A DNA stretch of 64,000 bases from Methanolacinia petrolearia DSM 11571 (GTDB taxonomy: Archaea; Halobacteriota; Methanomicrobia; Methanomicrobiales; Methanomicrobiaceae): NCBI RefSeq assembly GCF_000147875.1, contig NC_014507.1, forward strand, positions 2,542,001 through 2,606,000. The letters run 5' to 3'. A program made the position numbers and the translations under genes. Shown here piece by piece: positions 9,226 to 28,372 of this stretch. How positions within the stretch are numbered: the first letter of the stretch is position 1; each line of letters opens with the position of its first letter. The notes below the pieces were generated by a model. It worked only from the letters and a program-made list of their open reading frames with translations. It did not search any database and was not told where the DNA came from.

Positions 9226-10907
<1,682 letters not shown>

Positions 10908-11223
10908 CCTCAAAACTAAACTTTTTTTGAATGGAGAAATGCCGCAGGGAGGTGATAAAAAGTAGGCAAAACAGTAGCTAAAGGACGATTTATATGATTC
11001 AGATATAAATTCCGTAATTACCACTGTCGGAGGCACCGGGAGAAATACTCCATACTCATCCTCCCGGGTCTCCAGGGCACAAAATTCTTATACCCCCTAG
11101 TATATCCGCATTTTGACTAAAAAAATTATTCATCTTTCATTTTAATTAAAAAATGAAATTTCCTTATAATAAATTCACTTCGGCATATGCTTTACATGAA
11201 AATCACGTTGTGGTTTACACGAA
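10908..11223. other. Intergenic region after glnK with T-run and hairpin
   Basis: No protein gene is seen in these 316 bases. A run of seven T at 10922-10928 is a likely archaeal terminator for amt-glnK. An orphan Shine-Dalgarno-like GGGAGGTGAT lies at 10948-10957 with no open frame after it. A TATA-like TTTATATGA near 10990 is followed by a 7-bp GC stem, CCGGGAG (11036-11042) with CTCCCGG (11061-11067). This could belong to a small RNA or a regulatory element. Confidence 0.4.
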
Positions 11224-11258
11224 ACAGTTCATGAAACCTTCGTTTCATAAACGTTTTT
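11224..11258 (-). repeat. 35-bp stem-loop repeat, right inverted copy
   Basis: The reverse complement matches 8205-8239 at 34 of 35 bases; the only difference is in the loop (GAAG against AAAG). This copy covers the stop codon of the minus-strand hydrolase gene, mirroring the left copy. The pair encloses the DUF2115, amt and glnK genes. Confidence 0.8.
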
Positions 11259-12191
11259 TAGGAAAGCGATTGCCTGCTCCTGTGCCTCTTTGGACCTGGG
11301 ATTTATCCAGAAGCAGAGATGGGAACCCTCCTCAATCCAGATTCTCTCCGCATCCCTGATATGCTCGTATGCATAAACCCCGTCGTACAGTTTCACGTCG
11401 GCGTCATGAGTGCCGTGGACAATAAGTGCCGGACACTCGATCTTTTCTACAGGAAGGTGATAAAGAGTCCGGGTAATGGCCATATCGTTCTCCGTCCCGG
11501 CCTTTCGGGTCTTATACGGATACATAGTATTCATGAAAGCCGTAACGAAATCATGAGCACAGGGGTCATTCAGGACGAAATCGAGATGTTTCTTCATCTG
11601 TTCCTTTGTAAAATACGCCTCGCTTTTGAAGATCTCCTTTATGAAAGCATCCGGCTTGGATTTCGTCATCTTCTGCAGGAGTTTCTGGCCGGAATCGGAC
11701 AGGAATATCATCTGGGCTACCGGCCCTGCTGTTTCCGGCAGATCATAATATCCGCTGACGGAATCGGCAGTTACAAGAGCCCATATACGATCCGGGTGGC
11801 GGATTGCAAACGTGTATGCAAAAGGCCCGCCCGCAGAGACCGAAAAGACCGCGACCTTATCTATTCCAAGCTCATCGAGAGCGGCGGCAAAGAGATCCAC
11901 CTGATCTTCAAGGGAGGCCCCGCTCTCAAGCGGAGTGCCAAGATAACCCGGCCGGGAAAGAGACAGCAACCTGAAATCCTTTGCTGCGAAATCGATGGCC
12001 GCACGGCACTGGTCGATACCGCCAAGACCGCCATGAATCCCCATCAATACAGGGCCGTCGCCTTCCGCCAGGTCGATCTCGATCTTCCCGAGTTTCGTCT
12101 CAATTATCTTTGGAGTGATAGATACGCCTTTTAATACTTCCAGCCTGCCATCTTCGGTTTTTTTGGATTTTTTATCCTTTTTTTGCGACAT
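11229..12191 (-). CDS. Cytoplasmic alpha/beta hydrolase
   Basis: This 320-residue protein starts with a lysine-rich tail (MSQKKDKKSKK) and has no signal peptide. It shows an alpha/beta hydrolase core: the oxyanion loop GIHGGLGGIDQ, LSRPGYLGTP, the nucleophile elbow FSVSAGGPF, a late acid in VHGTHDADV and the catalytic His in EGSHLCFW. The nucleophile motif is SxSxGG rather than GxSxG, a common variant. The substrate is unknown. It is monocistronic, and its last codons lie within the 35-bp repeat. Confidence 0.82.
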   Translation of the reverse strand: MSQKKDKKSKKTEDGRLEVLKGVSITPKIIETKLGKIEIDLAEGDGPVLMGIHGGLGGIDQCRAAIDFAAKDFRLLSLSRPGYLGTPLESGASLEDQVDLFAAALDELGIDKVAVFSVSAGGPFAYTFAIRHPDRIWALVTADSVSGYYDLPETAGPVAQMIFLSDSGQKLLQKMTKSKPDAFIKEIFKSEAYFTKEQMKKHLDFVLNDPCAHDFVTAFMNTMYPYKTRKAGTENDMAITRTLYHLPVEKIECPALIVHGTHDADVKLYDGVYAYEHIRDAERIWIEEGSHLCFWINPRSKEAQEQAIAFLKNVYETKVS

Positions 12192-12395
12192 TACAGATCT
12201 CCGTCTCCTGGTTGCATGTTTGATTAAGATGTAATTTCTATCGATATTGATATTCTATCTTTCGCCGTCGCAGGTTTTTTTAAAGTCCCTCAGGAAAAAA
12301 GAGAACAATAACCAGACCTTAGCTTTTCAGGGAGTCCGGTCCGGCAGTTTGCGGCTTGTTTTATTGTTTTTTCAAATATATCTTCAAAACATTCC

Positions 12396-13091
12396 TCAAA
12401 ATTTATCAAGAGGGCACACCTTGATGCACATTCCGCACCTGAGCCCCCCGAGGGCATTGAACATATAGTCTGCACATTTCTCCCTGTGGATCACCCCTTC
12501 GGCAGTAATCGCTTTCGGAGGGCAGATATCGATGCATTTCATGCAGTCCTTACAGGCCTCGTTTACGAAGGGAAGCTCCCCCTTGTCGTCAGGCTCAAGA
12601 GGCGCATCGGTGAGAATTCCCATCATGCGAACCTTCAGCCCGAACTCCTTCGTGATTAGGAGATGGTTCATCCCGAAGTTCCCGAGCCCGGCATGGTATG
12701 CGGCATATTTGAACGAAAAATCGGCCATAAGCGTCTTCCGGTCTGCATACCAGTAGCCGAACTCGCTCCCCTCGCTCGGTGCGATCGTCGCCATGTAACC
12801 GGACTTCTCGATAAACTTCGCAACCTGAAAAGAGATGACACGAAGAGTCGCTGTTCCCGCCATGAGAGTATTGGTATATTCCCCCCTCCCCAAAGGAAGG
12901 GTTGAAAAGGCGCCTTTCGGGACCGAGACACCGATTATTATCACGGACTTAACACCGGGCATAACGTCCCGCGGATTTTTACCCTTGTAATCAGGGCTGT
13001 CGAAGCAGGACGAATCGACAATCCCCACAAAATCTGCCCCGAGCCCGAGAGCGGTATCTTTCAGTAATCCTGATATATTTTCTTCTGCCAT
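12396..13091 (-). CDS. 4Fe-4S protein related to epoxyqueuosine reductase
   Basis: This 231-residue protein has an N-terminal domain of the QueG/reductive-dehalogenase type (VKSVIIIGVSVPKGAF, GLGNFGMNHLLIT). A double [4Fe-4S] ferredoxin segment follows: CKDCMKCIDICPPKAI and later CGMCIKVCPL. QueG-like proteins use cobalamin and two Fe-S clusters, but short archaeal relatives such as this one (QueG itself is longer) have no assigned substrate. A related protein is encoded at 35292-36017. It probably acts as a cytoplasmic reductase or electron carrier. It is monocistronic. Confidence 0.8.
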   Translation of the reverse strand: MAEENISGLLKDTALGLGADFVGIVDSSCFDSPDYKGKNPRDVMPGVKSVIIIGVSVPKGAFSTLPLGRGEYTNTLMAGTATLRVISFQVAKFIEKSGYMATIAPSEGSEFGYWYADRKTLMADFSFKYAAYHAGLGNFGMNHLLITKEFGLKVRMMGILTDAPLEPDDKGELPFVNEACKDCMKCIDICPPKAITAEGVIHREKCADYMFNALGGLRCGMCIKVCPLDKF

Positions 13092-16244: not shown

Positions 16245-16547
16245 TATCAGCTCCTGCAGGAGCCTGCACATGAAAAATAATGCTGCATGTCATCAGTTTT
16301 CTGTATCGAAATCCTTTCAGGATCTATATGCAGAACATCGTAAAAAAAGATCGGGGCGGTATATTTCATGCAGGTTCACCCTTCACTTTGTTTAGCCGGC
16401 AAGGCTAAACAGGGATTCCGGTTTTTTGCATTAATCACGGACATTACGGGCTTAGAGATCAGTATCTTCCTTTCGAATCTAACCACCAACAAGTATATCA
16501 GGATCTAATTTCAAGATCGGGTCACCTTAAATAGGTTGGTGATTATT
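16245..16547. other. Divergent intergenic region with perfect hairpin
   Basis: This gap lies between the divergently transcribed H+-ATPase and GH18 genes and must hold both promoters. GTTTAGCC and GGCTAAAC at 16390-16410 form a perfect 8-bp stem around a GGCAA loop, and six T follow at 16422-16427. Because no plus-strand gene ends here, it may be an operator or an attenuator rather than a plain terminator. No gene is seen. Confidence 0.45.
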
Positions 16548-19442
16548 TTGATTTTGAATCGACTTGCATTATTAATTCTGATCGTTCTGTTGGGAAGCCT
16601 GTGCCTTCCTGCAGGAGCAGCGAACTGGCCTGATCAGTTCTATGCACCGTATATAAATATTGAGATGTATGCACCTCCCACGATCAACGATGTTTACGAT
16701 GCGACCGGCGTGAAGTACTATTCGCTTGGTTTCATAACCGCGAACACCACTACCGGCAAACTCCGGTTCGGAGATCATCCTGAAGCAGATTATTACAAAG
16801 ATCAGATCGACACACTCCGTACAAAGGGCGGTGACGTGATTATCTCCTTCGGGGGAGCGTTTGCTGAAAAAACCGAACCGGCGATAGTGATAACGGACCT
16901 GAACAACCTTGTTGATGCATACGGTTCCGTCATCGATACATACGGTATGAACTACATAGATTTCGACATCGAAGGAGGGGCACTCACGAACATAGATGCC
17001 AATAGCAGACGCTACGAGGCGATATTGAAGCTTAAGGAGAAATACCCGGATCTCATGGTCTCGACAACCATCGCCGTCATGCCTTATGGCCTCACAGAAT
17101 TTCAATTGAATTATCTCAGCAATGCAACGAAGGCCGAGGCCGAATACAAGAAAAATACAGGAAAGGACGTGCTCATCTTCGACAGGATCAATATCATGCT
17201 CATGGACTACGGTAATGATTACAAAGGGGACATGGGGCAATATGCGATAGAGGCCGCAACCAACACGAACAAACAGTTAAGCCAGGGCTATTACAGCGGC
17301 AAATCCGAGGCCGAGATATGGAAGAGAATGGGCCTGACCCCGATGATCGGCCAGAATGACAACCAGTACGAGATCTTCACCCTGAACAATGCCAAAACGC
17401 TTGCAGAGTTTGCGGGAAGCAACGGCGCAGGAATGATGTCACAGTGGTCTGTCCACCGTGATAATGGAAATTGCCCGGGGCAGGTTGTTGCAAGTCCTCT
17501 GTGTAGCGGCATTGTACAGGATCCTTATGAATTCTCGAATATCCTCAAGAATTATACCTCGATGAGACCTTCGGAACCTGCTCCCATATCATCCACTATC
17601 TGGCCCGACCAGTTATGTGCACCGTATATCGATTACGGACTCTGGCAGGGTTACACGATCAACGATGCATACGCTGCAACCGGAGTGAAGTATTATACAT
17701 GCTGTTTCATAACCGTGAACAATGCAGGCGAACTCAGATTCGGAGATCATACCGAAGCCGACTACAGGTTGAACGATATAAATGCACTCCGTGCAAACGG
17801 GGGAGACGTGATAATATCCTTCGGCGGAGCATTCGGGGAATCCTCCGAACCTGCAGTCAAAATAACAGACCTGGACAAACTCGTCGATGCATACAGCTCC
17901 GTCATCGAAACATACGGTGTGAACTACATAGATTTCGACATCGAAGGAGCGGCAGTCACGAACCAGGGGGCCAACAGCAGGCGCAATCACGCAATAATCA
18001 GGCTTAAGGAAAAGTACCCGGACCTGAAAGTATCGACCACTCTTGCCGTCAGCCCTGTTGGATTCACAGAAGAAGTACTGGCTTTCCTCTCTGATGCAAA
18101 GGGTGTCGAGGACAAATATAACAGTGAAAACCCGGGAAAAGATGTACTCATCTTCGACAGGGTCAATATCATGCTCATGGACTATGGTCCCAGCTACCTT
18201 GGAGACATGGGGCAATATGCAATAGATGCCTCCAATGGCGTGCACAGACAGTTAAGTCAGGGTTATTACAGCGGCAAATCCGATTCCGAGATCTGGAAGA
18301 GGATGGGGCTTACCCCGATGATCGGACAGAATGACCAGGAAGGAGAGATCTTTACCCTGGACAATGCCAGAACGCTTGCCGAGTTTGCGGGAAGCAACGG
18401 TGCCGGTATGATGTCGATGTGGTCGTTAAGCCGTGACAACAGCGGCACTGTCGGCCAGTTCCCGCCTTCCGCGACAGGAAGCAGCGTTCAACAGGAACCT
18501 TTTGAATTCACGAATATCATCAAAAACTATCCCTCGATGAGGATCGACCCGACAAGAACTCCCGAACCGACACCGACCTATGAAACTGGTCTGATAACGC
18601 CTACACCTACGCGGGCAACCGGCCTGATACCTGAATGGAATTCGGAGAAGGAGTATGATACCGGGGAGATTGTCCTTTACGGCGGCAGTATGTATGCCGC
18701 AAGATGGTGGACGATTGACGAGGAGCCCGGCATAGAATATGTCTGGCTGTCGACATCCGGAAAACTCGTACCGGATCGTGCAACAGGACTGATGTCGCAA
18801 TGGGATTCCGGTAGGATATATACCGAAGGAGAGACCGTCATTTATGACGACGGCGTATATTCTGCAAAATGGCTGACAATGGGTGAAAAACCCGGCGAAA
18901 CCTATGTATGGGATATGATTTCAGAGATTGAACCTGAGGTTCCCGTGACAGAAACCGTTACGGAGACAGAGACTCCTGCAACAGGCCTGATAATGAAATG
19001 GGACTCGAAGACCGAATATGACGCAGGAGATAAAGTCCTCTACAAGGGTAAAACCTATACGGCAAGATGGTGGAACGTAGCCGAACCCCCCGGCCACACA
19101 TATTCATGGATATCGGATGCAGGCGAATACATGCCTACCCCTACTCCCTCATCGGGCCCGGCAAAACAGTGGGATTCGAGGAAGGCATATGCAGCCGGCG
19201 ACATGGTCATCTATAACTACAACAGGTACAGGGCGAGCTGGATGAACAGGGGCGAAGTTCCCGGAGTATCGTATGTCTGGGAACTGGCCCCTGAAGAGCC
19301 TACACCTTCACCGACGCGGGCAACCGGCCTGATTACTCCGACTCCCACTTATTCAAAAGGACTTATTACTCCGACTCCGACCCGTGCTACAGGTCTGATT
19401 ACCCCGAATCCCACCCCTGCAACAGGCCTTTTGGGAGGATAA
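16548..19442 (+). CDS. Secreted tandem GH18 protein with carbohydrate-binding modules
   Basis: The TTG at 16548 is chosen because GGTGAT lies 4 bases upstream; it gives 964 residues. A signal peptide (NRLALLILIVLLG to PAGAA) is followed by two GH18 (chitinase-like) barrels at about 30-345 and 350-665. Each has the catalytic YIDFDIEG strand (near residues 140 and 461) and near-identical stretches such as QLSQGYYSGKS and MGLTPMIGQND, so the domain was duplicated recently. Four CBM5/12-like modules follow (WDS..Y..G..V.Y....Y.A.W......PG..Y.W). They are joined by Pro/Thr linkers that repeat TGLI. No membrane anchor is seen at the end. The likely role is binding and hydrolysis of chitin or another GlcNAc polymer outside the cell. 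Confidence 0.9.
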   Translation: MILNRLALLILIVLLGSLCLPAGAANWPDQFYAPYINIEMYAPPTINDVYDATGVKYYSLGFITANTTTGKLRFGDHPEADYYKDQIDTLRTKGGDVIISFGGAFAEKTEPAIVITDLNNLVDAYGSVIDTYGMNYIDFDIEGGALTNIDANSRRYEAILKLKEKYPDLMVSTTIAVMPYGLTEFQLNYLSNATKAEAEYKKNTGKDVLIFDRINIMLMDYGNDYKGDMGQYAIEAATNTNKQLSQGYYSGKSEAEIWKRMGLTPMIGQNDNQYEIFTLNNAKTLAEFAGSNGAGMMSQWSVHRDNGNCPGQVVASPLCSGIVQDPYEFSNILKNYTSMRPSEPAPISSTIWPDQLCAPYIDYGLWQGYTINDAYAATGVKYYTCCFITVNNAGELRFGDHTEADYRLNDINALRANGGDVIISFGGAFGESSEPAVKITDLDKLVDAYSSVIETYGVNYIDFDIEGAAVTNQGANSRRNHAIIRLKEKYPDLKVSTTLAVSPVGFTEEVLAFLSDAKGVEDKYNSENPGKDVLIFDRVNIMLMDYGPSYLGDMGQYAIDASNGVHRQLSQGYYSGKSDSEIWKRMGLTPMIGQNDQEGEIFTLDNARTLAEFAGSNGAGMMSMWSLSRDNSGTVGQFPPSATGSSVQQEPFEFTNIIKNYPSMRIDPTRTPEPTPTYETGLITPTPTRATGLIPEWNSEKEYDTGEIVLYGGSMYAARWWTIDEEPGIEYVWLSTSGKLVPDRATGLMSQWDSGRIYTEGETVIYDDGVYSAKWLTMGEKPGETYVWDMISEIEPEVPVTETVTETETPATGLIMKWDSKTEYDAGDKVLYKGKTYTARWWNVAEPPGHTYSWISDAGEYMPTPTPSSGPAKQWDSRKAYAAGDMVIYNYNRYRASWMNRGEVPGVSYVWELAPEEPTPSPTRATGLITPTPTYSKGLITPTPTRATGLITPNPTPATGLLGG

Positions 19443-19632
19443 ATCTAAACCAATTTTTTTAATTCATAACTCTCCTTTTCAGAATGCAGGCGGGAAATAC
19501 CCCGGAGGATTTTCGGCCTCTAACACAATATTTTTATCATCCTGCAAGAAATATTCAAAATAAAGCGTTATCGGTCTTTTTTCGATAAACAGGCACTTAC
19601 CGGATCAGGCCGTACTTACGGAAGTGACATCA
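19443..19632. promoter_or_regulatory. Upstream region of the methyltransferase cluster
   Basis: A T7 run at about 19451-19458 ends the GH18 transcript. An AT-rich stretch (CACAATATTTTTATC) could be the promoter. TTATCG (19568-19573) and CGATAA (19583-19588) form a 6-bp stem about 50 bases before the MtrH-like gene, a candidate regulatory hairpin. GGAAGTGA is the ribosome site for the ATG at 19633. Confidence 0.4.
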
Positions 19633-20505
19633 ATGTTCAGTTTTAAAACCGACCAGAAGACATACGAGATCGCCGGCACCAGGGTTGGCGGCCAGCCGGG
19701 CGAAATCCCCACGGTCCTTATCGGGAGTATGTTCTATACAAAACACAAGATTGTAACAGACGAAAGAGCGGGAGAATTCGACAGGGATGCCGCCGAAGCC
19801 CTGGTAAGGAAGCAGGAAGAGCTCGGAGACAAGACCCGCAACCCGGCCTTAATCGACATCGTGGCTTCATCTTCGGAAGCGATCCTCAGGTACATCGATT
19901 TTGTTGCAGGGATGAATGAAAAACCGTTCTTCATCGACTCCGCAAGTGCGGATGTCAAGATTGCCGCGATCGAATACGCAAAAGAGATCGGTCTCGAAAA
20001 AAGGATCGTCTACAACTCCGTCTCTATCGAGACGAAGGATAACGAATACGCGGCCTTAAAGGCAAACGGGATCGAATCGGCAATCCTCCTCTCGTTCACC
20101 AGGGACATCATGAGCAGCAGGGCACGGGCGGAGACCGTGGATAAACTCGCACCCAAAATGGAAGAGTCCGGTATCAAAAATATCCTCGTCGATACCTTCG
20201 TAATGGACGTTCCGAGCCTCACACCCTCCGGCAGGGCGACGATAGAGATCAAGAAGAAGACCGGATATCCATGCGGGACCGCGGCACACAACGCGATATC
20301 GACATGGAAGGGACTCAAGAATATGCTCGGAAAGGAGGGAGTGAGATCTGCGGATATCGTTGCAAATATCATGCCGGCAATCTTCGGCGCCGACTTTCTG
20401 CTCTACGGCCCGGTCGAGAACTGCGAATCAGTCTTCCCTGCGGCCTTCACGATAGATACCACCTACAGGTATGCCGCGAGGATGAAAGAGACCATCGATG
20501 TCTGA
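19633..20505 (+). CDS. MtrH-family methyltransferase (MtoA/MtvA-like)
   Basis: This 290-residue protein is a homologue of MtrH, which moves methyl groups between a corrinoid and tetrahydromethanopterin. It has the family opening (FKTDQKTYEIAGTRVGGQPGE.PTVLIGSMFY) and the conserved DSAS and PCGTAAHNA segments. No other Mtr subunit gene is nearby. Instead it heads a cluster with a corrinoid activator, a corrinoid protein and a URO-D methyltransferase, as MtoA and MtvA do in O-demethylation systems. It therefore probably passes substrate-derived methyl groups from the corrinoid protein to tetrahydromethanopterin. The ATG at 19633 follows GGAAGTGA; a GTG at 19624 is less likely. It overlaps the next gene by 8 bases. 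Confidence 0.88.
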   Translation: MFSFKTDQKTYEIAGTRVGGQPGEIPTVLIGSMFYTKHKIVTDERAGEFDRDAAEALVRKQEELGDKTRNPALIDIVASSSEAILRYIDFVAGMNEKPFFIDSASADVKIAAIEYAKEIGLEKRIVYNSVSIETKDNEYAALKANGIESAILLSFTRDIMSSRARAETVDKLAPKMEESGIKNILVDTFVMDVPSLTPSGRATIEIKKKTGYPCGTAAHNAISTWKGLKNMLGKEGVRSADIVANIMPAIFGADFLLYGPVENCESVFPAAFTIDTTYRYAARMKETIDV

Positions 20506-22336
20506 GGAGAATCACAGCGTCAGGGTCACCTTCGAGCCCGACGGAAAGACGGTCGAAGACTCTTCAGGAACACTGCTCGAACTTGCACAGGCTGCAAACA
20601 CGAGCCTTCGCGGAGACTGCGGCGGAGCGGGAGTCTGCGGCAAATGCAGGGTCCAGATCGTAAAACTATACGGGGAGGTATCCGATCCGACGGAGAAGGA
20701 AAGGGATCACCTGAAGGACGGAGAGATCGCCGCCGGCTACAGGCTCGCCTGCCAGACGAAGATTCTCTCGGGGAAATGCACTGTTCACATCCCACCTGCA
20801 AGCAGGACTGCAAAGCGGGAGATCTCTGGTCTCGGGCTTGATGAGGATGTCCCTCTCGACCCGGCAGTAAGGAAGATCCATGTAAAGCCGGAAAAAGCGA
20901 CATTCGGGGACCCAAGACCCGACATTCAAAGGCTTAAGGACTCCCTCCAGGCAGGAGACGAACTGAAGTTTCCGCTCACGGTTCTCTCGGGCCTCCCCGC
21001 AGTACTGCGCAGTTCCGGCTGGAATATAACCGTAACGCTGTGGAAGGACAAACTGGTATCTGTCGAGCAGGGAGACACTTCGAAAGAATGTTTCGGGATA
21101 GCGGTCGATATCGGTTCTTCCAAGATCATCTGCCATCTCGTGAATCTCGTGACAGGAGAAACCATTGCAAAGGCAAACGGCGAAAACCCGCAGATCATGT
21201 ACGGCGAGGATGTAGTATCGAGGATAACATATGCATCGAAGTCGCCGGAGAAACTGAAAAAGCTCCAGTCGCTTGTTACCGGAACCATAAACTCGCTCAT
21301 AGAAGAGGCATGCAGGGAGAGCGGAAAGTCACCTGAAAATATCTACGAGATGGTCTTTGTGGGAAATTCGGTAATGCACCACCTCGTCCTCGGGATAATC
21401 CCGAAGTATATCGGCGTCGCACCGTTCGTCCCGGCTGTAACAGATCTGGTGAGTTTTCCCGCGAAGGATATAGGCATTAACATCAATCCCGACGGGATGA
21501 TAACCGCAATTCCCCTCATAGGCGGATTTATCGGAGCGGATGCAGTCGCAAACATCCTCATATCAGGGATCTACGAGACCGACGATCTCTGCCTCCTGAT
21601 CGATATAGGAACGAACTCGGAGATCCTTCTCGGAAACTCCAAAGAGATCATGGCATGCTCGGCTCCTTCAGGGCCTTCGTTCGAGGGAGCGCACATAAGT
21701 TCGGGGATGAAAGCGGTCAGCGGGGCTATCGAGAGCGTGAAGATCATCGACGGCAAACTCCTCTACTCCACGATCGACGATGAAAAACCCAGAGGAATCT
21801 GCGGCAGCGGCATAATCGATCTTGTCGCAGAGCTATATACGGCCGGAATAATCACAAGGACAGGAAAATTCAGGAACCTCGATCATCCACGGATCGTAGT
21901 CCGGGACGTTCCCAGGTTTATCGTCGCAGGAAAGGAAGAGAGCGGAATAGACAATGATATATCGGTCAGCGAAAAGGACATCAACGAGTTTCTGCTCGCA
22001 AAGGGATCGCTTAAGGCCGGATGGAAAATACTGGCAAAAAAGTGGGGAATTGCTCCTTCTGAGATAGACAGGATCTATCTTGCGGGCTCCTTCGGCACGC
22101 ATGTAAATATCGACAACGCGATAGTTCTCGACATCCTCCCGGACATTGACAGGGAGAAGATCGTTTTCGCCGGTGAAACCGCGGTCGGCGGGGCGAAGAT
22201 CGCACTCAAATCACTGGAAAAGAGAAATGAACTGAAGGAAATCCTGAAAAGGGTAAAGTACGTGGAGCTCTCGATTGAGCATTCGTTCCAGAAAGATTAC
22301 CTCGCGTCCATCCCGATATCCGGGCGTAAAAGCTGA
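20498..22336 (+). CDS. RACo-type corrinoid activation protein (2Fe-2S plus ASKHA)
   Basis: This 612-residue protein has an N-terminal plant-type [2Fe-2S] ferredoxin domain with Cys41, Cys47, Cys50 and Cys85. A linker follows and then a DUF4445/ASKHA ATPase-like region (GIAVDIGSSKIICHLV, IDIGTNSEILLG, GICGSGIIDLVAELY, YLAGSFGTHVNIDNA). This is the layout of RACo and MtoD, which reduce inactive Co(II) corrinoid proteins to Co(I) at the cost of ATP. Methanogen RamA differs in having C-terminal 4Fe-4S ferredoxin motifs, so this gene is of the bacterial type. It overlaps the MtrH-like gene, so the two are translationally coupled. Confidence 0.9.
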   Translation: MSEENHSVRVTFEPDGKTVEDSSGTLLELAQAANTSLRGDCGGAGVCGKCRVQIVKLYGEVSDPTEKERDHLKDGEIAAGYRLACQTKILSGKCTVHIPPASRTAKREISGLGLDEDVPLDPAVRKIHVKPEKATFGDPRPDIQRLKDSLQAGDELKFPLTVLSGLPAVLRSSGWNITVTLWKDKLVSVEQGDTSKECFGIAVDIGSSKIICHLVNLVTGETIAKANGENPQIMYGEDVVSRITYASKSPEKLKKLQSLVTGTINSLIEEACRESGKSPENIYEMVFVGNSVMHHLVLGIIPKYIGVAPFVPAVTDLVSFPAKDIGININPDGMITAIPLIGGFIGADAVANILISGIYETDDLCLLIDIGTNSEILLGNSKEIMACSAPSGPSFEGAHISSGMKAVSGAIESVKIIDGKLLYSTIDDEKPRGICGSGIIDLVAELYTAGIITRTGKFRNLDHPRIVVRDVPRFIVAGKEESGIDNDISVSEKDINEFLLAKGSLKAGWKILAKKWGIAPSEIDRIYLAGSFGTHVNIDNAIVLDILPDIDREKIVFAGETAVGGAKIALKSLEKRNELKEILKRVKYVELSIEHSFQKDYLASIPISGRKS

Positions 22337-22474
22337 TTTCAATTCATTTTTTTTAAATTATAACCACGGAATTTGTTTTTAGAGCCTGCAAAAAGGCTGC
22401 AACAGAGATAAATTATATCTGGAGCCCCGCAAGAGTATCAATTATCTCACTCAAATGTGAGAGGGGTATAAAAA

Positions 22475-23113
22475 ATGACAGACGTGAGAGAAGATTTTAT
22501 AAATGCACTCGTAGATCTCGACGAGACGAAATGCATCGACCTTGCGAAGCAGAGGGTCGAAGCCGGAGAAGACCCCTTCACCATCCTGGAAGACCTCAGA
22601 GAGGCTACCGACAGAATAGGCAATATGTTCGAAGAGGGCCGGTTCTTTGTCTCGGACCTCATGATGGCGGGAGAGATCCTCAAACAGATAATGGTGGTGC
22701 TCAAGCCCGCATTCGGAGACCGGAAGATCGAAAGCAAAGGAACGATCGTCATCGGAACGGTCGAAGGCGACGTCCACGATATCGGAAAGAACATAGTCAC
22801 CGCACTTCTTGAAGCGGAAGGATTCACGGTCGTCGATCTCGGTGTCGACCAGCCGCCCGAGGCGTTCATCAATGCGATCAAGGAGAACAAACCGCTCGTC
22901 GTAAGCCTTTCCGGGCTCCTGACCGAGGCTATCGATTCGATGAAGAAGACCGTCGATGCAATCAAGGCCGCCGGACTCCGCGACAGTGTAAAGATAATCA
23001 TCGGAGGAGGAAGAACCGACGAAGAGGCGAAGGAATACATCGGCGCAGACGACTGGTCCGACGATGCAACGAGCGGCGTCAGGAAGATTAAGAAACTCGC
23101 AGGGGTGGCGTAG
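22475..23113 (+). CDS. Methyltransferase corrinoid protein (MtoC/MtvC-like)
   Basis: This 212-residue protein has the two-domain layout of methyltransferase corrinoid proteins. A helical cap domain (1-85) is followed by a Rossmann B12-binding domain with D99-x-H101-x-x-G104 in GDVHDIGKN, where His101 ligates cobalt. Later segments (VVDLGVDQPPE, VSLSGLLTEAIDSM, IIGGG) fit the MtaC/MtbC/MtvC family. It would carry the methyl group between the URO-D enzyme encoded next and the MtrH-like protein. It begins 139 bases after the activator gene, possibly with its own promoter, and ends directly at the next start. The ribosome site is GAGAGGGG. Confidence 0.92.
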   Translation: MTDVREDFINALVDLDETKCIDLAKQRVEAGEDPFTILEDLREATDRIGNMFEEGRFFVSDLMMAGEILKQIMVVLKPAFGDRKIESKGTIVIGTVEGDVHDIGKNIVTALLEAEGFTVVDLGVDQPPEAFINAIKENKPLVVSLSGLLTEAIDSMKKTVDAIKAAGLRDSVKIIIGGGRTDEEAKEYIGADDWSDDATSGVRKIKKLAGVA

Positions 23114-24370
23114 ATGGAGCCCGCAGAACTCTACCGCCAGAGGCTTGACAGGTTAGAGGCGGTAATCAAAGGAAAAGAGCCGGACCGCGTTCCGATAACG
23201 GCCATGGTAACCATATTCCAGGGCCATTATGCAGGATACAAGGCAAAAGATGTCATACTCGATGCGGCGAAGAACAAGGAAGCGACCCTTAAGACGGCTG
23301 CCGATTTCGATTTCGATTCGATAACCGCCCTTACCGGACTTGAAGGAACGATCATGAGCATGACGTTCCTTAAATCGGCTCCCGAACTCATTCCCGCCGC
23401 AAGGTTCCTGCAGGCCCAGTACCACCCGATCTTAAAAGATGTCTACACTAAATGGCCGGGAATCGAGCTCGATGACGATGCCCACCCGCAGTTCATCGGC
23501 AAGGAGATCATGAAGGTCGAAGAATACGACCAGTTCATCGAAAACCCTACAGAATACCTGAACCGTGTTGCACTGCCGAGGATCTGTCCGGGGCTTGCTG
23601 AACCGGGATCTCCGGAATCTAACGCTGCATTCTCAAAATACGGCGCCCAGCTTGCCACTTTCGGTGCATCACAGGGCGATCTCATAGGCTCTCTTGCGGC
23701 GATGGGTTTTCCGACATTTCCGACTGCATGGAGCTATTCGCCGCTCGATGTACTCGGAGATTTCCTTCGCGACATAAAGAACATAGTCATCGATCTCTTC
23801 AGGTACCCGGAAAAAGTAAAACAGGCGGTTGAAGCCCTTACACCGATGTTGATAGAATCGGCAAGGATAACGGGAACTGTCCCGCCGGAGATGAAGAAGG
23901 CGCTCGGCACCGATATCGTCGAATGCTTCTTCCCGCTGCACTTAAACGAGTACCTCAACCCGAAACAATACGACGAGTTCTACTGGCCGGCCCTGAAAAA
24001 AGTGCTCGAAGAAACTATCGCAATGGGTCAGACGCCGTACATCCTCTTTGAGGGGCGTCACGACGCACATCTCGAAACACTCCTCGAACTTCCAAAAGGA
24101 AAGGTGATCGCCGTATTCGACAAGACCGACCCGAGAAAGGTGAGAGATGTCGTCGGCGATCATGTAATTCTTTCAAGCGGTCCGCCCAACTCACTCCTTA
24201 TCGGTGGAACGCCCCAGAAGGTCGACGACTACATGAAGAGTATGCTCACCGACTGCAAGGAAGGCGGAATGATGATCTACCCCGGAGTCGACGGCGGAAT
24301 CTCCGGAGATGCCAGACCTGAAAATGTTCAGGCGATGATCAAAGCAGTACAGAAATACGGAACATACTGA
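23114..24370 (+). CDS. URO-D family corrinoid methyltransferase (MtoB/MtvB-like)
   Basis: This 418-residue TIM-barrel protein belongs to the uroporphyrinogen decarboxylase-like methyltransferases. Its C-terminal region (ILFEGRHDAHLETLLELPKG, FDKTDPRKVRDVVGD, ILSSGPPNSLL.GGTPQKV) resembles the MtvB/MtoB/CmuA-like branch. The HxC zinc motif of MtaA/MtbA is absent. In the Mtv/Mto systems the URO-D member takes the methyl group from an aryl methyl ether and gives it to the corrinoid protein. Here the start abuts the corrinoid-protein stop with GGGGTGG as ribosome site, so these two are a functional pair. The substrate is inferred: methoxylated aromatics, or another methyl donor. Confidence 0.85.
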   Translation: MEPAELYRQRLDRLEAVIKGKEPDRVPITAMVTIFQGHYAGYKAKDVILDAAKNKEATLKTAADFDFDSITALTGLEGTIMSMTFLKSAPELIPAARFLQAQYHPILKDVYTKWPGIELDDDAHPQFIGKEIMKVEEYDQFIENPTEYLNRVALPRICPGLAEPGSPESNAAFSKYGAQLATFGASQGDLIGSLAAMGFPTFPTAWSYSPLDVLGDFLRDIKNIVIDLFRYPEKVKQAVEALTPMLIESARITGTVPPEMKKALGTDIVECFFPLHLNEYLNPKQYDEFYWPALKKVLEETIAMGQTPYILFEGRHDAHLETLLELPKGKVIAVFDKTDPRKVRDVVGDHVILSSGPPNSLLIGGTPQKVDDYMKSMLTDCKEGGMMIYPGVDGGISGDARPENVQAMIKAVQKYGTY

Positions 24371-24499
24371 TCTTAACAGGGAGGGAAAGCCCCCCCTGCC
24401 TGAACTTTTTTCCTGCCGGAGATACGAAACGATTCTCCCGCGGCATAAAACTCAAATTAATATTAAAAATGAACTGAAATTTTCAGAAAATCCGACATG

Positions 24500-24608
24500 T
24501 ATAAATACTACAATACATAGTCTCTATCATGAAACAGGGAGAAAAAGGGGCACATTACATATTCTCCTGCAAAGTGCCCGGAAAATCGATCCCTCAGGAG
24601 GTTGCGGC
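24500..24608 (+). promoter_or_regulatory. Promoter and 5' leader hairpin of the decarboxylase operon
   Basis: A TATA box (TATAAATA, 24500-24507) precedes a leader of roughly 80 bases. GGGCAC (24548-24553) and GTGCCC (24574-24579) form a 6-bp stem with a 20-base loop. The ribosome site CAGGAGG lies just before the ATG at 24609. The leader hairpin is a candidate post-transcriptional control element. Confidence 0.45.
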
Positions 24609-26930
24609 ATGAACCCCGAGGAGAGACTCCAGGTAGGAGTTATCGACGCGAATGTTCATACAGACACTCCGGCAGGAAGGGCTGTAACAAAAATTATCCA
24701 GGATCTGGCCGAATACGGAATCGAGGTCACTGTACTTGTATCTACAGAAGATGCAAGAGCAGCTCTCTCTAACCTGCCGTCGGCAGACTGCATAATGGTG
24801 AACTGGAACGTCGGTGAATCGGATGATAGTCCTGCCGGAAAGAAGGTTGCCTCAGGGGTTGATGCAAACCTAATCATATCCGAGATCAGGAAACGAAATG
24901 AGGAGATCCCGATCTTTCTCATGGGCGAACCTACGAGTGAACCGCCGAAAAAGCTCCCTATCGAGATGATTAAAGGGATCAACGAGTTCGTCTGGGTGAT
25001 GGACGACACCGCCGAATTCCTTGCGGGACGAATAAGAGCAGCGGCAAAGAGGTACAGGGATCAACTCCTTCCCCCGTTCTTCGGCGAACTGGTGAATTTC
25101 TCCCGCGACTTCGAATATTCATGGCACACGCCCGGTCATGCAGGCGGAACCGCATTCAGGAAATCGCCGGCAGGAAGGGCATTCTTCAATTTCTTCGGCG
25201 AACAGTTGTTCAGGTCAGACATATCCATCTCAGTAGGCGAACTCGGCTCCCTTCTCGACCATTCCGGGCCGGTAGGAGAGGCGGAAAGATACGCGGCAAA
25301 GGTGTTCGGTGCGGATTCCACCTATTTTGTCACCAACGGAACGTCGACATCGAACAAGATCGTCTTCTTCGGGAGGGTCACCGCAGACGACATTGTCCTC
25401 GTCGACAGGAACTGCCACAAATCGGCGGAGCATGCACTGACCATGACTCATGCGGTCCCGGTATACCTCATTCCGACAAGGAACAGGTACGGGATCATCG
25501 GTCCGATACATCCCGAAGAGTTCTCACCTGAAACTATCAAAGCGAAGATTGCGGCCTCCCCGCTGACAAAGAAACTGAAAAACAAGACTCCCATCCACTC
25601 GATAATTACAAATTCAACCTACGACGGCCTCTGTTATCACGCGGAATGGGTGGAGAACGAGCTCGGAAAGAGTGTCGACAGCATCCACTTCGACGAGGCA
25701 TGGTATGGATATGCACGCTTCAATCCGATGTACCGCAACCGCTTCGCGATGAGGGACGGTGCCAAGAACCCCGGAGGGCCCACGGTCTTTGCAACGCAGT
25801 CGACCCATAAACTGCTCGCTGCACTCTCACAGGCATCCATGGTCCATGTCAGAAACGGAAGGGTGCCGATCGAACACTCGAGGTTCAACGAGGCGTTCAT
25901 GATGCACTCCTCGACCTCCCCGCTCTATACCATAATCGCCTCCTGCGATGTCTCCGCGAAGATGATGGACGGGGCATCGGGAAGGATGCTCACACAGGAG
26001 CCGATCGAGGACGCGATCAGGTTCAGGCGGATGATGGCGAGGATCAACAGGGAGATCGGTACGGGAAAAACGGCGAACGACTGGTGGTTCGGAATGTGGC
26101 AGCCTGATTTCGTAACAGATCCATCCACCGGCAAGAAGATGGACTTCGCCGACGCAGGCATCAACCTGCTGGGCAAAGAGCCGTCATGCTGGGTTCTCCA
26201 CCCCGAGGACAGCTGGCACGGGTTCACTGATCTCCCCGACGACTACTGCATGCTCGACCCGATAAAGGTGACCGTGCTCATGCCCGGAGTAAAAGACGAC
26301 GGAACACCGGCCGACTGGGGAATACCAGCGGCAATCGTCGTCAAGTTCCTGGACACGAAAGGAATCGTCAACGAGAAGTCGGGCGACTACAACATACTCT
26401 TCCTCTTCTCTATGGGAATCACCAAGGGCAAGTGGGGAACGCTTGTCACCGAACTCTTCGAATTCAAGCGCCACTGGGAAGAGGAAACACCGCTCGAAGA
26501 GGTCTTCCCCGATCTTGTGAAGGAATGGCCGGAGAGGTACGGCGGAATGACCCTGCCCGGACTGGTCAACGATATGCACGATTACATGAAAAAGACCGAG
26601 CAGGGCAAACTCCTCCAGGAGGCCTACGAGAAACTGCCCGAACAGGTCATGACATACGCGGAGGCCTACAGGTGCCTCGTCCGCAACGAAGTGGAGCATG
26701 TCGCAGTCTCTGATATGGAGAACAGGATCGTTGCAACCGGAGTGTTCCCGTATCCGCCAGGAATCCCTGTCCTCGCACCCGGCGAATCGGCGGGAAAGAA
26801 GAAAGGAGCGATCATCAAATATCTCCTTGCACTCCAGGAATTCGACAAGAAGTTCCCGGGATTCGAGCACGACATACACGGCGTTGAGAACGTGAACGGG
26901 AAGTACATGATATACTGCCTGAAGGAGTGA
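24609..26930 (+). CDS. PLP-dependent Orn/Lys/Arg decarboxylase
   Basis: This 773-residue protein is a fold-type I decarboxylase of the inducible AdiA/LdcI type. Residues 1-140 form the receiver-like wing domain. The core has HTPGHAGG, VTNGTSTSNK, FDEAWYGYARFNP and the PLP lysine in TQSTHKLL. The C-terminal domain is complete (total length near the 755 of AdiA). The DEAWYG and size favour arginine or lysine as substrate; the exact amino acid is uncertain. The reaction consumes a proton and makes an amine plus CO2. An APC antiporter follows 2 bases downstream, which suggests an amino acid/amine exchange cycle for acid resistance or energy gain. Confidence 0.9.
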   Translation: MNPEERLQVGVIDANVHTDTPAGRAVTKIIQDLAEYGIEVTVLVSTEDARAALSNLPSADCIMVNWNVGESDDSPAGKKVASGVDANLIISEIRKRNEEIPIFLMGEPTSEPPKKLPIEMIKGINEFVWVMDDTAEFLAGRIRAAAKRYRDQLLPPFFGELVNFSRDFEYSWHTPGHAGGTAFRKSPAGRAFFNFFGEQLFRSDISISVGELGSLLDHSGPVGEAERYAAKVFGADSTYFVTNGTSTSNKIVFFGRVTADDIVLVDRNCHKSAEHALTMTHAVPVYLIPTRNRYGIIGPIHPEEFSPETIKAKIAASPLTKKLKNKTPIHSIITNSTYDGLCYHAEWVENELGKSVDSIHFDEAWYGYARFNPMYRNRFAMRDGAKNPGGPTVFATQSTHKLLAALSQASMVHVRNGRVPIEHSRFNEAFMMHSSTSPLYTIIASCDVSAKMMDGASGRMLTQEPIEDAIRFRRMMARINREIGTGKTANDWWFGMWQPDFVTDPSTGKKMDFADAGINLLGKEPSCWVLHPEDSWHGFTDLPDDYCMLDPIKVTVLMPGVKDDGTPADWGIPAAIVVKFLDTKGIVNEKSGDYNILFLFSMGITKGKWGTLVTELFEFKRHWEEETPLEEVFPDLVKEWPERYGGMTLPGLVNDMHDYMKKTEQGKLLQEAYEKLPEQVMTYAEAYRCLVRNEVEHVAVSDMENRIVATGVFPYPPGIPVLAPGESAGKKKGAIIKYLLALQEFDKKFPGFEHDIHGVENVNGKYMIYCLKE

Positions 26931-26932
26931 CA

Positions 26933-28372
26933 ATGAGCGAAGAAACAAAGACAGGCAAGGGAGTAAAGAAAGTCTATCTCGGCATATTCGCCCTTGCGAT
27001 GATAAACGTCGCCGCAGTGCTGAGCATCAGGAACTTTCCGTCGATGGCAATCTACGGGTGGTCGTGTATCGGGTGGTACATCATCGGGACGATACTATTC
27101 CTGATCCCGATCTCCCTTGCGGGTGCCGAACTTGCAACAGGCTGGCCCGAGGGCGGTGGTGTCTACGCATGGGTAAAGCAGGCGTTCGGGGAGAGAGACG
27201 GATTTATCGCGCTCTTCTGCGAATGGTCGAACAACCTCGTCTGGTTCCCGACCGTCCTGTCGTTCATCGCAGCGACACTCGCATTCGCCCTTACACCGAA
27301 TCTTACATCGAGCCCGCTGTATATGTTCACCGTGATGATGATCGCATTCTGGGGAACTACCGCAGTCGCATATTTCGGCGAAAATGCCTCGACTAAACTC
27401 AGCAACTTCGGCGTAGTGCTCGGCAGCATCATCCCTGCGGTAGTGATCACGCTTCTCGGGATCTGGTGGTTTGCATCCGGGCAGCAGCTGGTTCTCCCTG
27501 AATTTTCACTTGGAGAGATTGCACCGGAGATAAATCTCGATACACTGCCTTTCTTCGCAACGGTTGTTCTTCTCTTTGCAGGTATGGAGATGGCGGGCTT
27601 CCACGCTCTCGAAGTCAGAAACCCGCAGACGGACTTCCCGAAGGCGATCGGCATCTCGGCAGTAATAATCTTCTTCTGCACGATTGCGGCGACGCTCGCA
27701 ATTGCATTTGTAATCCCGGCAAACCAGCTGAGCCTTGCATCAGGTGTTATGCAGGCGATACAGTATTTCTTTGATTCCGCGGGGCTGTCGGCTTTCGTTG
27801 GGCCTATGGCGTTGTTGATCACTATCGGCGGTGTGGTAAATCTCGCGGCATGGCTCATAGGACCTGCAAAAGGTCTCGGGGTCATTGCAGAAGAGGGGAA
27901 CATGCCGCCAATGTTTGACCGGACGAACAAATACGGAGCTCCGGTTGCGGTTCTGGTCACGCAGGCGCTCATCGGCTCTGTAATCTCGCTCCTGTATGTG
28001 TTCCTGCCGTCCGTCAACCAGGCATACTGGATACTGTCGGCTATGACCGTGGAACTGCTCTGCATCGTATACTTCCTGGTATTTGCTGCTCTCATCAAAC
28101 TCAGGTACAGCCAGCCCGATAAGCCGAGGCCGTTCAAGATCCCCGGCGGAATGCCGGGAGTCTGGATCGTCGGAGGGATGGGAGCAGTAGGAGTCGTATT
28201 CTCGTTCATCGTGGGACTTATGCCCCCTTCCTACTACGACAACACAATCGGCTATGTCGTAGCGGTTCTCTTCGGGACATTCGTTCTTGCGGTTCCGCCT
28301 CTTATCTTCCTTAAACTAAAGAAACCAAGCTGGGCAAAAGGTGCAAACAAGGAGGTGGCACAGGATGAATGA
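26933..28372 (+). CDS. APC-family amino acid/amine antiporter (GadC-like)
   Basis: From the ATG at 26933 (ribosome site AAGGAGTGA) the protein has 479 residues and about twelve membrane helices. The opening helix and the EGGGVYAWVKQAFGER loop are typical of the glutamate:GABA antiporter subgroup of the APC superfamily. It directly follows the amino-acid decarboxylase gene and very likely imports that enzyme's substrate in exchange for its amine. Together they would act as a virtual proton pump. The stop overlaps the start of the next small gene by 8 bases. Confidence 0.88.
   Translation: MSEETKTGKGVKKVYLGIFALAMINVAAVLSIRNFPSMAIYGWSCIGWYIIGTILFLIPISLAGAELATGWPEGGGVYAWVKQAFGERDGFIALFCEWSNNLVWFPTVLSFIAATLAFALTPNLTSSPLYMFTVMMIAFWGTTAVAYFGENASTKLSNFGVVLGSIIPAVVITLLGIWWFASGQQLVLPEFSLGEIAPEINLDTLPFFATVVLLFAGMEMAGFHALEVRNPQTDFPKAIGISAVIIFFCTIAATLAIAFVIPANQLSLASGVMQAIQYFFDSAGLSAFVGPMALLITIGGVVNLAAWLIGPAKGLGVIAEEGNMPPMFDRTNKYGAPVAVLVTQALIGSVISLLYVFLPSVNQAYWILSAMTVELLCIVYFLVFAALIKLRYSQPDKPRPFKIPGGMPGVWIVGGMGAVGVVFSFIVGLMPPSYYDNTIGYVVAVLFGTFVLAVPPLIFLKLKKPSWAKGANKEVAQDE

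Follow-up and report, generated by a model that had tools for sequence, protein, structure and literature searches.

Four intact, adjacent genes are found at positions 19633-24370 of the window, which is the 64,000-nt stretch of DNA that was analysed from the 2,843,290 bp genome of Methanolacinia petrolearia DSM 11571. Their products are a methyltransferase resembling MtrH, an activator of the RACo type, a corrinoid protein and a methyltransferase of the URO-D type. The organism's known growth substrates are H2, formate and 2-propanol, each with CO2. It comes from an oil field and is, as an earlier note on this DNA had supposed of the host, a hydrogenotrophic member of the Methanomicrobiales, and it requires acetate as a carbon source (PMC3035365). 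That note also took the genes to imply an unrecognised methylotrophic or methoxydotrophic ability in such a host; methylotrophic growth with methanol or with trimethylamine is reported to be lacking (PMC3035365). The features of the locus are listed below.

19633..20505, + strand: mtoA, predicted MtrH-like methylcorrinoid:tetrahydromethanopterin methyltransferase, 290 aa (PF02007, 8e-100)
20498..22336, + strand: mtoD, predicted RACo-type reductive activator of the corrinoid protein, 612 aa (Fer2 and RACo domains, Cys motif)
22445..22462, no strand assigned: inverted repeat TCTCAC-N6-GTGAGA just 5' of mtoC, a candidate operator or 5'-UTR hairpin
22475..23113, + strand: mtoC, predicted methyl-carrying corrinoid protein, 212 aa (PF02607 and PF02310)
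23114..24370, + strand: mtoB, predicted URO-D-fold O-demethylase (methyltransferase 1), 418 aa (PF01208, 5e-20)

The genes are arranged in the order A-D-C-B with one mtoCB pair. The start of mtoD overlaps the end of mtoA, for which an alternative GTG start at 19624 is possible. This is the sole set of its kind in the M. petrolearia genome, as mtoB is the only URO-D gene, mtoC the only PF02607 gene and mtoD the only PF14574 gene. A canonical mtr operon is also present at 2.41 Mb. Comparison with a genome of the same genus gave dN/dS values of 0.035 (mtoA), 0.090 (mtoD), 0.036 (mtoC) and 0.039 (mtoB), which indicates that the genes are real and under strong constraint.

The domain content and motifs of the proteins agree with these assignments. 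MtoC contains B12-binding_2 and B12-binding domains, has an intact DxHxxG motif for B12 (DVHDIG at residue 99) and is 71% identical to A. fulgidus MtoC (AF_0006). MtoD matches Fer2 and the RACo linker, middle and C-terminal domains (to 2.5e-81), retains the N-terminal 2Fe-2S cysteines (C-X5-C-X2-C...C, from residue 41) and is 54% identical to A. fulgidus MtoD. MtoA passes the cut-off of the MtrH-family model NF002142 but not that of canonical MtrH (TIGR01114), and it shares 53% identity with A. fulgidus MtoA and 31% with the organism's own canonical MtrH. In a tree it falls together with A. fulgidus MtoA (98/97) and is separate from MtrH of the Mtr complex. The canonical protein shares the PF02007 fold and a likely pterin site with MtoA, but it is 345 aa long and is encoded in the separate mtr operon. 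The intact frames, Pfam domains, motifs and recurrence of the set in other genomes confirm the four-gene composition read in the earlier note. That note had called the set "Mto/Mtv-like". The first half of the label stands, as in the trees the proteins fall with Archaeoglobus MtoB and MtoA; the second half fits less well, the second methyltransferase being of the MtrH type (PF02007), whereas Mtv uses MtvA. The MtvABC system of the acetogen Moorella thermoacetica does share a URO-D O-demethylase and a corrinoid protein with the M. petrolearia set, but MtvA is not of the MtrH type and transfers the methyl group to H4F.

MtoB is 63% and 60% identical to the two A. fulgidus MtoB proteins (AF_0007 and the second copy, respectively) and groups with both (clade support 100/95 to 100/100) in a tree that leaves out Methermicoccus MtoB and Moorella MtvB. 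Within this tree the MtoB clade comprises Methanomicrobiales, Archaeoglobi, Jordarchaeum and Bipolaricaulota (bootstrap/SH-aLRT 100/100). The Methanomicrobiales form a clade of their own (100/99), with Archaeoglobi alone as their sister at modest support (97/71). The AlphaFold2 model of MtoB (pLDDT 95.6) is a URO-D barrel, and a Foldseek search of the PDB matched it to URO-D enzymes and an M. mazei methyltransferase. An assignment to MtaA/MtbA/CmuA was rejected, as the protein scores 26.9 bits with TIGR01463 (cut-off 235) and 44 with PRK06252 (cut-off 244); a search of the protein for the HxC zinc motif found none, which also counts against this assignment. A proposed zinc motif, E-X14-E-X20-H, is absent from MtoB and from nearly all of the aligned rows and is thus uninformative.

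By sequence, the sole close PDB match to MtoB is CdmB of Acetobacterium dehalogenans (3.9e-81), an entry that is not among the Foldseek matches and is perhaps too recent for that library. Since CdmB is the best match of solved structure, it must be considered whether MtoB is a haloalkane demethylase that transfers methyl from CH3Cl to MtoC. The CdmBCA system resembles the M. petrolearia set in having a URO-D-fold first methyltransferase with a corrinoid partner. CdmB does not convert methoxylated aromatics (PMC13222342), and it branches beside the MtoB clade, though weakly (80/82). The proximity of this lineage shows that the substrate can change within the URO-D methyltransferase family, which weighs against the Mto assignment. 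However, MtoB is 37% identical to CdmB as opposed to 63% to A. fulgidus MtoB, and CdmB pairs with a second sequence (L097) outside of the MtoB clade (100/100). The two also differ at three positions (M. petrolearia MtoB numbering): His276, Glu279 and Glu313 of MtoB are replaced by W, S/T and Q in CdmB and its sister, and the CdmB cavity is hydrophobic. His276 and Glu313 occur in all 64 MtoB-type rows and Glu279 in 62 of them. All three residues closely follow predicted barrel strands (269-275 and 306-312) in the AlphaFold2 model and may line the cavity. Lastly, CdmBCA employs a CdmA-type second methyltransferase (related to MtqA/MtvA), which is absent from the M. petrolearia set, where the MtrH type (PF02007) is found instead. 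Based on the tree position, the residues and the type of second methyltransferase, the haloalkane function was rejected as very improbable. The three polar residues may make it possible to distinguish ether-cleaving from haloalkane-cleaving URO-D methyltransferases by sequence.

The closest characterised counterparts are archaeal. The Mto system of A. fulgidus (AF_0006-AF_0013), which is induced by 2-methoxyphenol (PMC8359953), has the same four components in the same clades. It differs in having two mtoCB pairs and two MFS genes within the cluster, in the order C-B-MFS-A-D, and A. fulgidus is not a methanogen, unlike M. petrolearia. By description, the Mto system of Methermicoccus shengliensis is also alike, with the same list of components, a methanogen as host and an MtrH-like second methyltransferase (PMC8630106). 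Methermicoccus, however, is methylotrophic, possesses other methyltransferase systems and has transporter and regulator genes adjacent to its Mto cluster, whereas M. petrolearia is hydrogenotrophic, has no other URO-D gene and lacks such neighbours. Demethylation of methoxybenzoates by Methermicoccus MtoB, MtoC and MtoA has been demonstrated; the methyl group is accepted by the pterin analogue H4F but not by CoM, and neither methanol nor trimethylamine is used (PMC8630106).

It is thus probable, judging from the sequence comparisons, that the M. petrolearia genes encode a complete Mto O-demethylase that transfers the methyl group of methoxy compounds to tetrahydromethanopterin. MtoB would bind a methoxylated aromatic and present the O-methyl group to Co(I)-MtoC, which would become methyl-Co(III) as the phenol leaves. 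The resulting methyl-tetrahydromethanopterin would join the normal pathway via the Na+-pumping Mtr complex, and the methyl group would be used in biosynthesis or be reduced to methane, with H2 or formate as the electron donor. The substrate, the acceptor and the physiological role are inferred. The same chemistry could act on another donor (an aliphatic methyl ether, for instance, or some different O-methyl metabolite), perhaps to assimilate carbon or as a means of scavenging and not for energy. The pocket residues that set the substrate of MtoB are unreadable from the sequence, a single mtoB is present with no adjoining aromatic transporter, and the need for acetate as a carbon source would fit such a role. 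This alternative is considered unlikely, as methoxylated aromatics are the substrates of the closest characterised relatives, the oil-field origin matches that of Methermicoccus, and in another Methanomicrobiales genome (G013) the mto module occurs together with MFS transporters.

The set was found in 10 of the 199 genomes sampled, or about 5% of Methanomicrobiales, with a patchy distribution that includes Methanoplanus limicola and Methanogenium marinum. In G013 five intact mtoB genes and MFS transporters form a single array; two MFS genes accompany the set there, which is also the case in A. fulgidus. The patchiness, the broken frames of the Methanogenium cariaci copy and the lack of any record of growth on methyl compounds would be compatible with a decaying, functionless relict of horizontal transfer. 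For M. petrolearia this is extremely unlikely given the four intact frames with their motifs, the dN/dS values of 0.035-0.09 and the conservation of the upstream inverted repeat. TCTCAC-N6-GTGAGA is kept 5' of mtoC in Methanolacinia, Methanoplanus, Methanogenium, Methanofollis and G013, with 0.12 matches expected by chance in the window. A second match in the M. petrolearia genome, at 615172, is within a coding region and was taken as chance.

The earlier note regarded the ability as unrecognised, but a study by Kurth et al. (2021, PMC8630106) had already listed M. petrolearia as an mto carrier in one sentence. The presence of the genes was thus known, with their function in this organism only predicted; the frequency of about 5%, the five-mtoB array and the conserved repeat before mtoC are added here. 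We tentatively propose, as a possibility somewhat short of even, that several hydrogenotrophic Methanomicrobiales reduce aromatic methoxy groups to methane with H2 or formate, with entry at methyl-tetrahydromethanopterin and energy conserved by Mtr, and that mtoCB is a cassette with its own upstream control element whose multiplication in some lineages (as in G013) widens the substrate range. If so, a group of methanogens long held to use H2, formate and secondary alcohols would be able to make methane directly from the aromatics of lignin, coal and oil fields, with no need for acetogenic partners. The set is widespread enough among type strains in culture (M. petrolearia, M. limicola and Methanogenium marinum) that ordinary cultures can settle the question.

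No MFS transporter or regulator gene is present among the four M. petrolearia genes or their direct neighbours, and the closest MFS relatives elsewhere in the genome share only 26-28% identity with those of G013. As a Bipolaricaulota cluster (L058) also has no MFS gene between its four genes, the transporter was treated as accessory and not catalytic. An Rfam scan of positions 19000-25000 gave nothing above chance, and a scan of viral_contigs found no relatives. Downstream of the set, at 24609-28372, is a decarboxylase/antiporter pair, which was left out of the system, as it adjoins the mto genes in Methanolacinia alone among the loci compared.

The genes claimed in the earlier note are all present in Methanolacinia petrolearia DSM 11571, as determined from open frames and Pfam assignments:

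19633-20505, plus strand: mtoA, MtrH-like methyltransferase; open frame, Pfam MtrH
20498-22336, plus strand: mtoD, RACo-type activator; open frame, Pfam Fer2 and RACo
22475-23113, plus strand: mtoC, corrinoid protein; open frame, two Pfam B12-binding domains
23114-24370, plus strand: mtoB, URO-D methyltransferase; open frame, Pfam URO-D

The DVHDIG motif of MtoC and the cysteine motif of MtoD (C-X5-C-X2-C...C) are intact. By membership the set is an Mto system, as all of the catalytic components are found and only the accessory adjacent transporter is missing, with no MFS gene among the adjacent genes. Judged from sequence, it is very likely an Mto system in its chemistry as well. The genes mtoA and mtoD overlap, mtoC and mtoB abut, and 138 bases separate the two pairs. 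Two modules, [mtoA-mtoD] and [mtoC-mtoB], seem to make up the set, because the pairs are divergent in a further genome (G163). The dN/dS values against a same-genus genome are 0.035 (mtoA), 0.090 (mtoD), 0.036 (mtoC), and 0.039 (mtoB), similar to the 0.033 of the neighboring decarboxylase; this is purifying selection of ordinary strength, which speaks for a functional set and against a relict. Directly 3' of it (24609-28372) lies an acid-resistance-like pair, an arginine/lysine-type decarboxylase and, after it, an antiporter of the amino-acid/GABA type, a pair which was seen beside the mto set only in Methanolacinia among the loci compared. The product of 16536-19442, here in a methanogen, resembles a chitinase: it looks secreted and combines two GH18 stretches with four CBM5/12 modules.

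The organism (Methanoplanus petrolearius SEBR 4847; one contig, 2,843,290 bp) came from an offshore oil field and uses H2 and CO2, formate, and CO2 with 2-propanol; methanol and trimethylamine are not used (PMC3035365). The ability had been called unrecognised; that description does not hold, as Kurth et al. (2021) already name Archaeoglobus fulgidus, M. petrolearia, and Methanothermobacter tenebrarum as mto carriers (PMC8630106), and the finding is therefore known in outline. An open-access literature search returned no further paper joining M. petrolearia and methoxy compounds. Four points described below were not found in the literature covered: how widely the set is distributed, the array of G013, the contrast in residues, and the repeat ahead of mtoC. 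It is plausible that M. petrolearia could make a living from methoxylated aromatics via Mto.

The URO-D gene, the MT-type corrinoid gene, and the RACo gene each occur once in the genome, all within the mto cluster. Since mtoB is the sole URO-D gene, the genome-wide search found no URO-D-family CoM methyltransferase of the MtaA/MtbA type that could accept the methyl group. MtoA clusters with A. fulgidus MtoA (98/97, bootstrap/SH-aLRT), is 31% identical to the organism's own canonical MtrH, which is encoded at 2.41 Mb within a normal mtr operon, and scores above the cut-off of the NCBI MtrH-family model and below that of the canonical MtrH model. Methermicoccus MtoA is active with the pterin analogue H4F and inactive with CoM (PMC8630106). 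The MtoA grouping, the Methermicoccus result, and the absent MtaA/MtbA-type alternative, together with the model scores, argue well for tetrahydromethanopterin as the probable methyl acceptor, in agreement with the earlier note. The canonical mtr operon (L131) also carries tandem, near-identical mtrA-like genes (10773-11510 and 11731-12453).

Among solved structures, only CdmB, the Acetobacterium chloromethane methyltransferase, is close to the URO-D protein in sequence, so the substrate had to be tested rather than assumed. M. petrolearia MtoB is 63% identical to A. fulgidus MtoB (AF_0007) but only 37% identical to CdmB. A maximum-likelihood tree of 75 rows, built with a careful method, places Methanomicrobiales MtoB in a single clade (100/99) joined outward by Archaeoglobi (97/71), Jordarchaeum (100/95), and Bipolaricaulota (100/100). 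CdmB falls outside the MtoB clade, paired there with a protein from an actinobacterium. His276 and Glu313 (M. petrolearia numbering) are invariant in 64 MtoB-clade, bacterial, and other archaeal rows and Glu279 is found in 62 of them, whereas in CdmB and its sister the positions of His276, Glu279, and Glu313 are occupied by Trp, Ser/Thr, and Gln, respectively. In the predicted structure (pLDDT 95.6) these residues fall just past barrel strands 269-275 and 306-312. The strand ends of such barrels are the usual catalytic face, and the predicted secondary structure, rather than coordinates, suggests that the three residues lie on it. They are proposed here as a candidate marker, not an established one, because function is unproven for most of the 64 rows.

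Among the sampled Methanomicrobiales genomes, mtoB occurs in 10 of 199 (7 of 38 genera): Methanolacinia, M. limicola, Methanogenium, a Methanofollis MAG, two f5 genomes, and the Methanomicrobiaceae genome G013. In the G013 array (L019 and L020, C3:285000-324999) mtoA and mtoD are each present once, mtoC gives six matches, and mtoB has five intact copies plus a broken one. Two MFS transporters also lie inside the array, and the closest M. petrolearia MFS proteins are 26-28% identical to these. A. fulgidus has a similar arrangement on a smaller scale, with two mtoCB pairs and MFS genes. In Methanogenium cariaci JCM 10550 (L059, 3439-8265) mtoC is intact and mtoA, mtoD, and mtoB are each split into two or three reading frames, reflecting either gene decay or draft-assembly errors.

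Comparison of the regions upstream of mtoC revealed one further feature:

22445-22462: inverted repeat TCTCAC-N6-GTGAGA, 12 bases 5' of the mtoC start

Equivalents of the form CTC(A/G)C...GTGAG occupy the same position upstream of mtoC in Methanolacinia, M. limicola, three Methanogenium, and Methanofollis, and upstream of most G013 mtoC copies, one of which is a remnant. The repeat is present at 12 of 13 compared sites, the thirteenth having a different inverted repeat, and was not seen upstream of mtoC in the f5 genomes or A. fulgidus. By chance 0.12 matches are expected in the window, and the only other exact match in the genome is inside a coding region. The repeat is a candidate operator or leader hairpin; its RNA folds only modestly better than shuffled sequences do (z -0.8 to -3.1).

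MtoB-like genes were also observed in Thermoproteota (Sulfolobales, Desulfurococcaceae) and Nezhaarchaeota (L065, L088, L091, L093, L094, L098, L101, L102, L104), several of them accompanied by corrinoid and RACo genes. Two genomes of a Methanosarcinia-class genus (L129 and L130; G205 and G251) have clusters in which distant URO-D methyltransferases, three per genome, are encoded together with corrinoid proteins and RACo.
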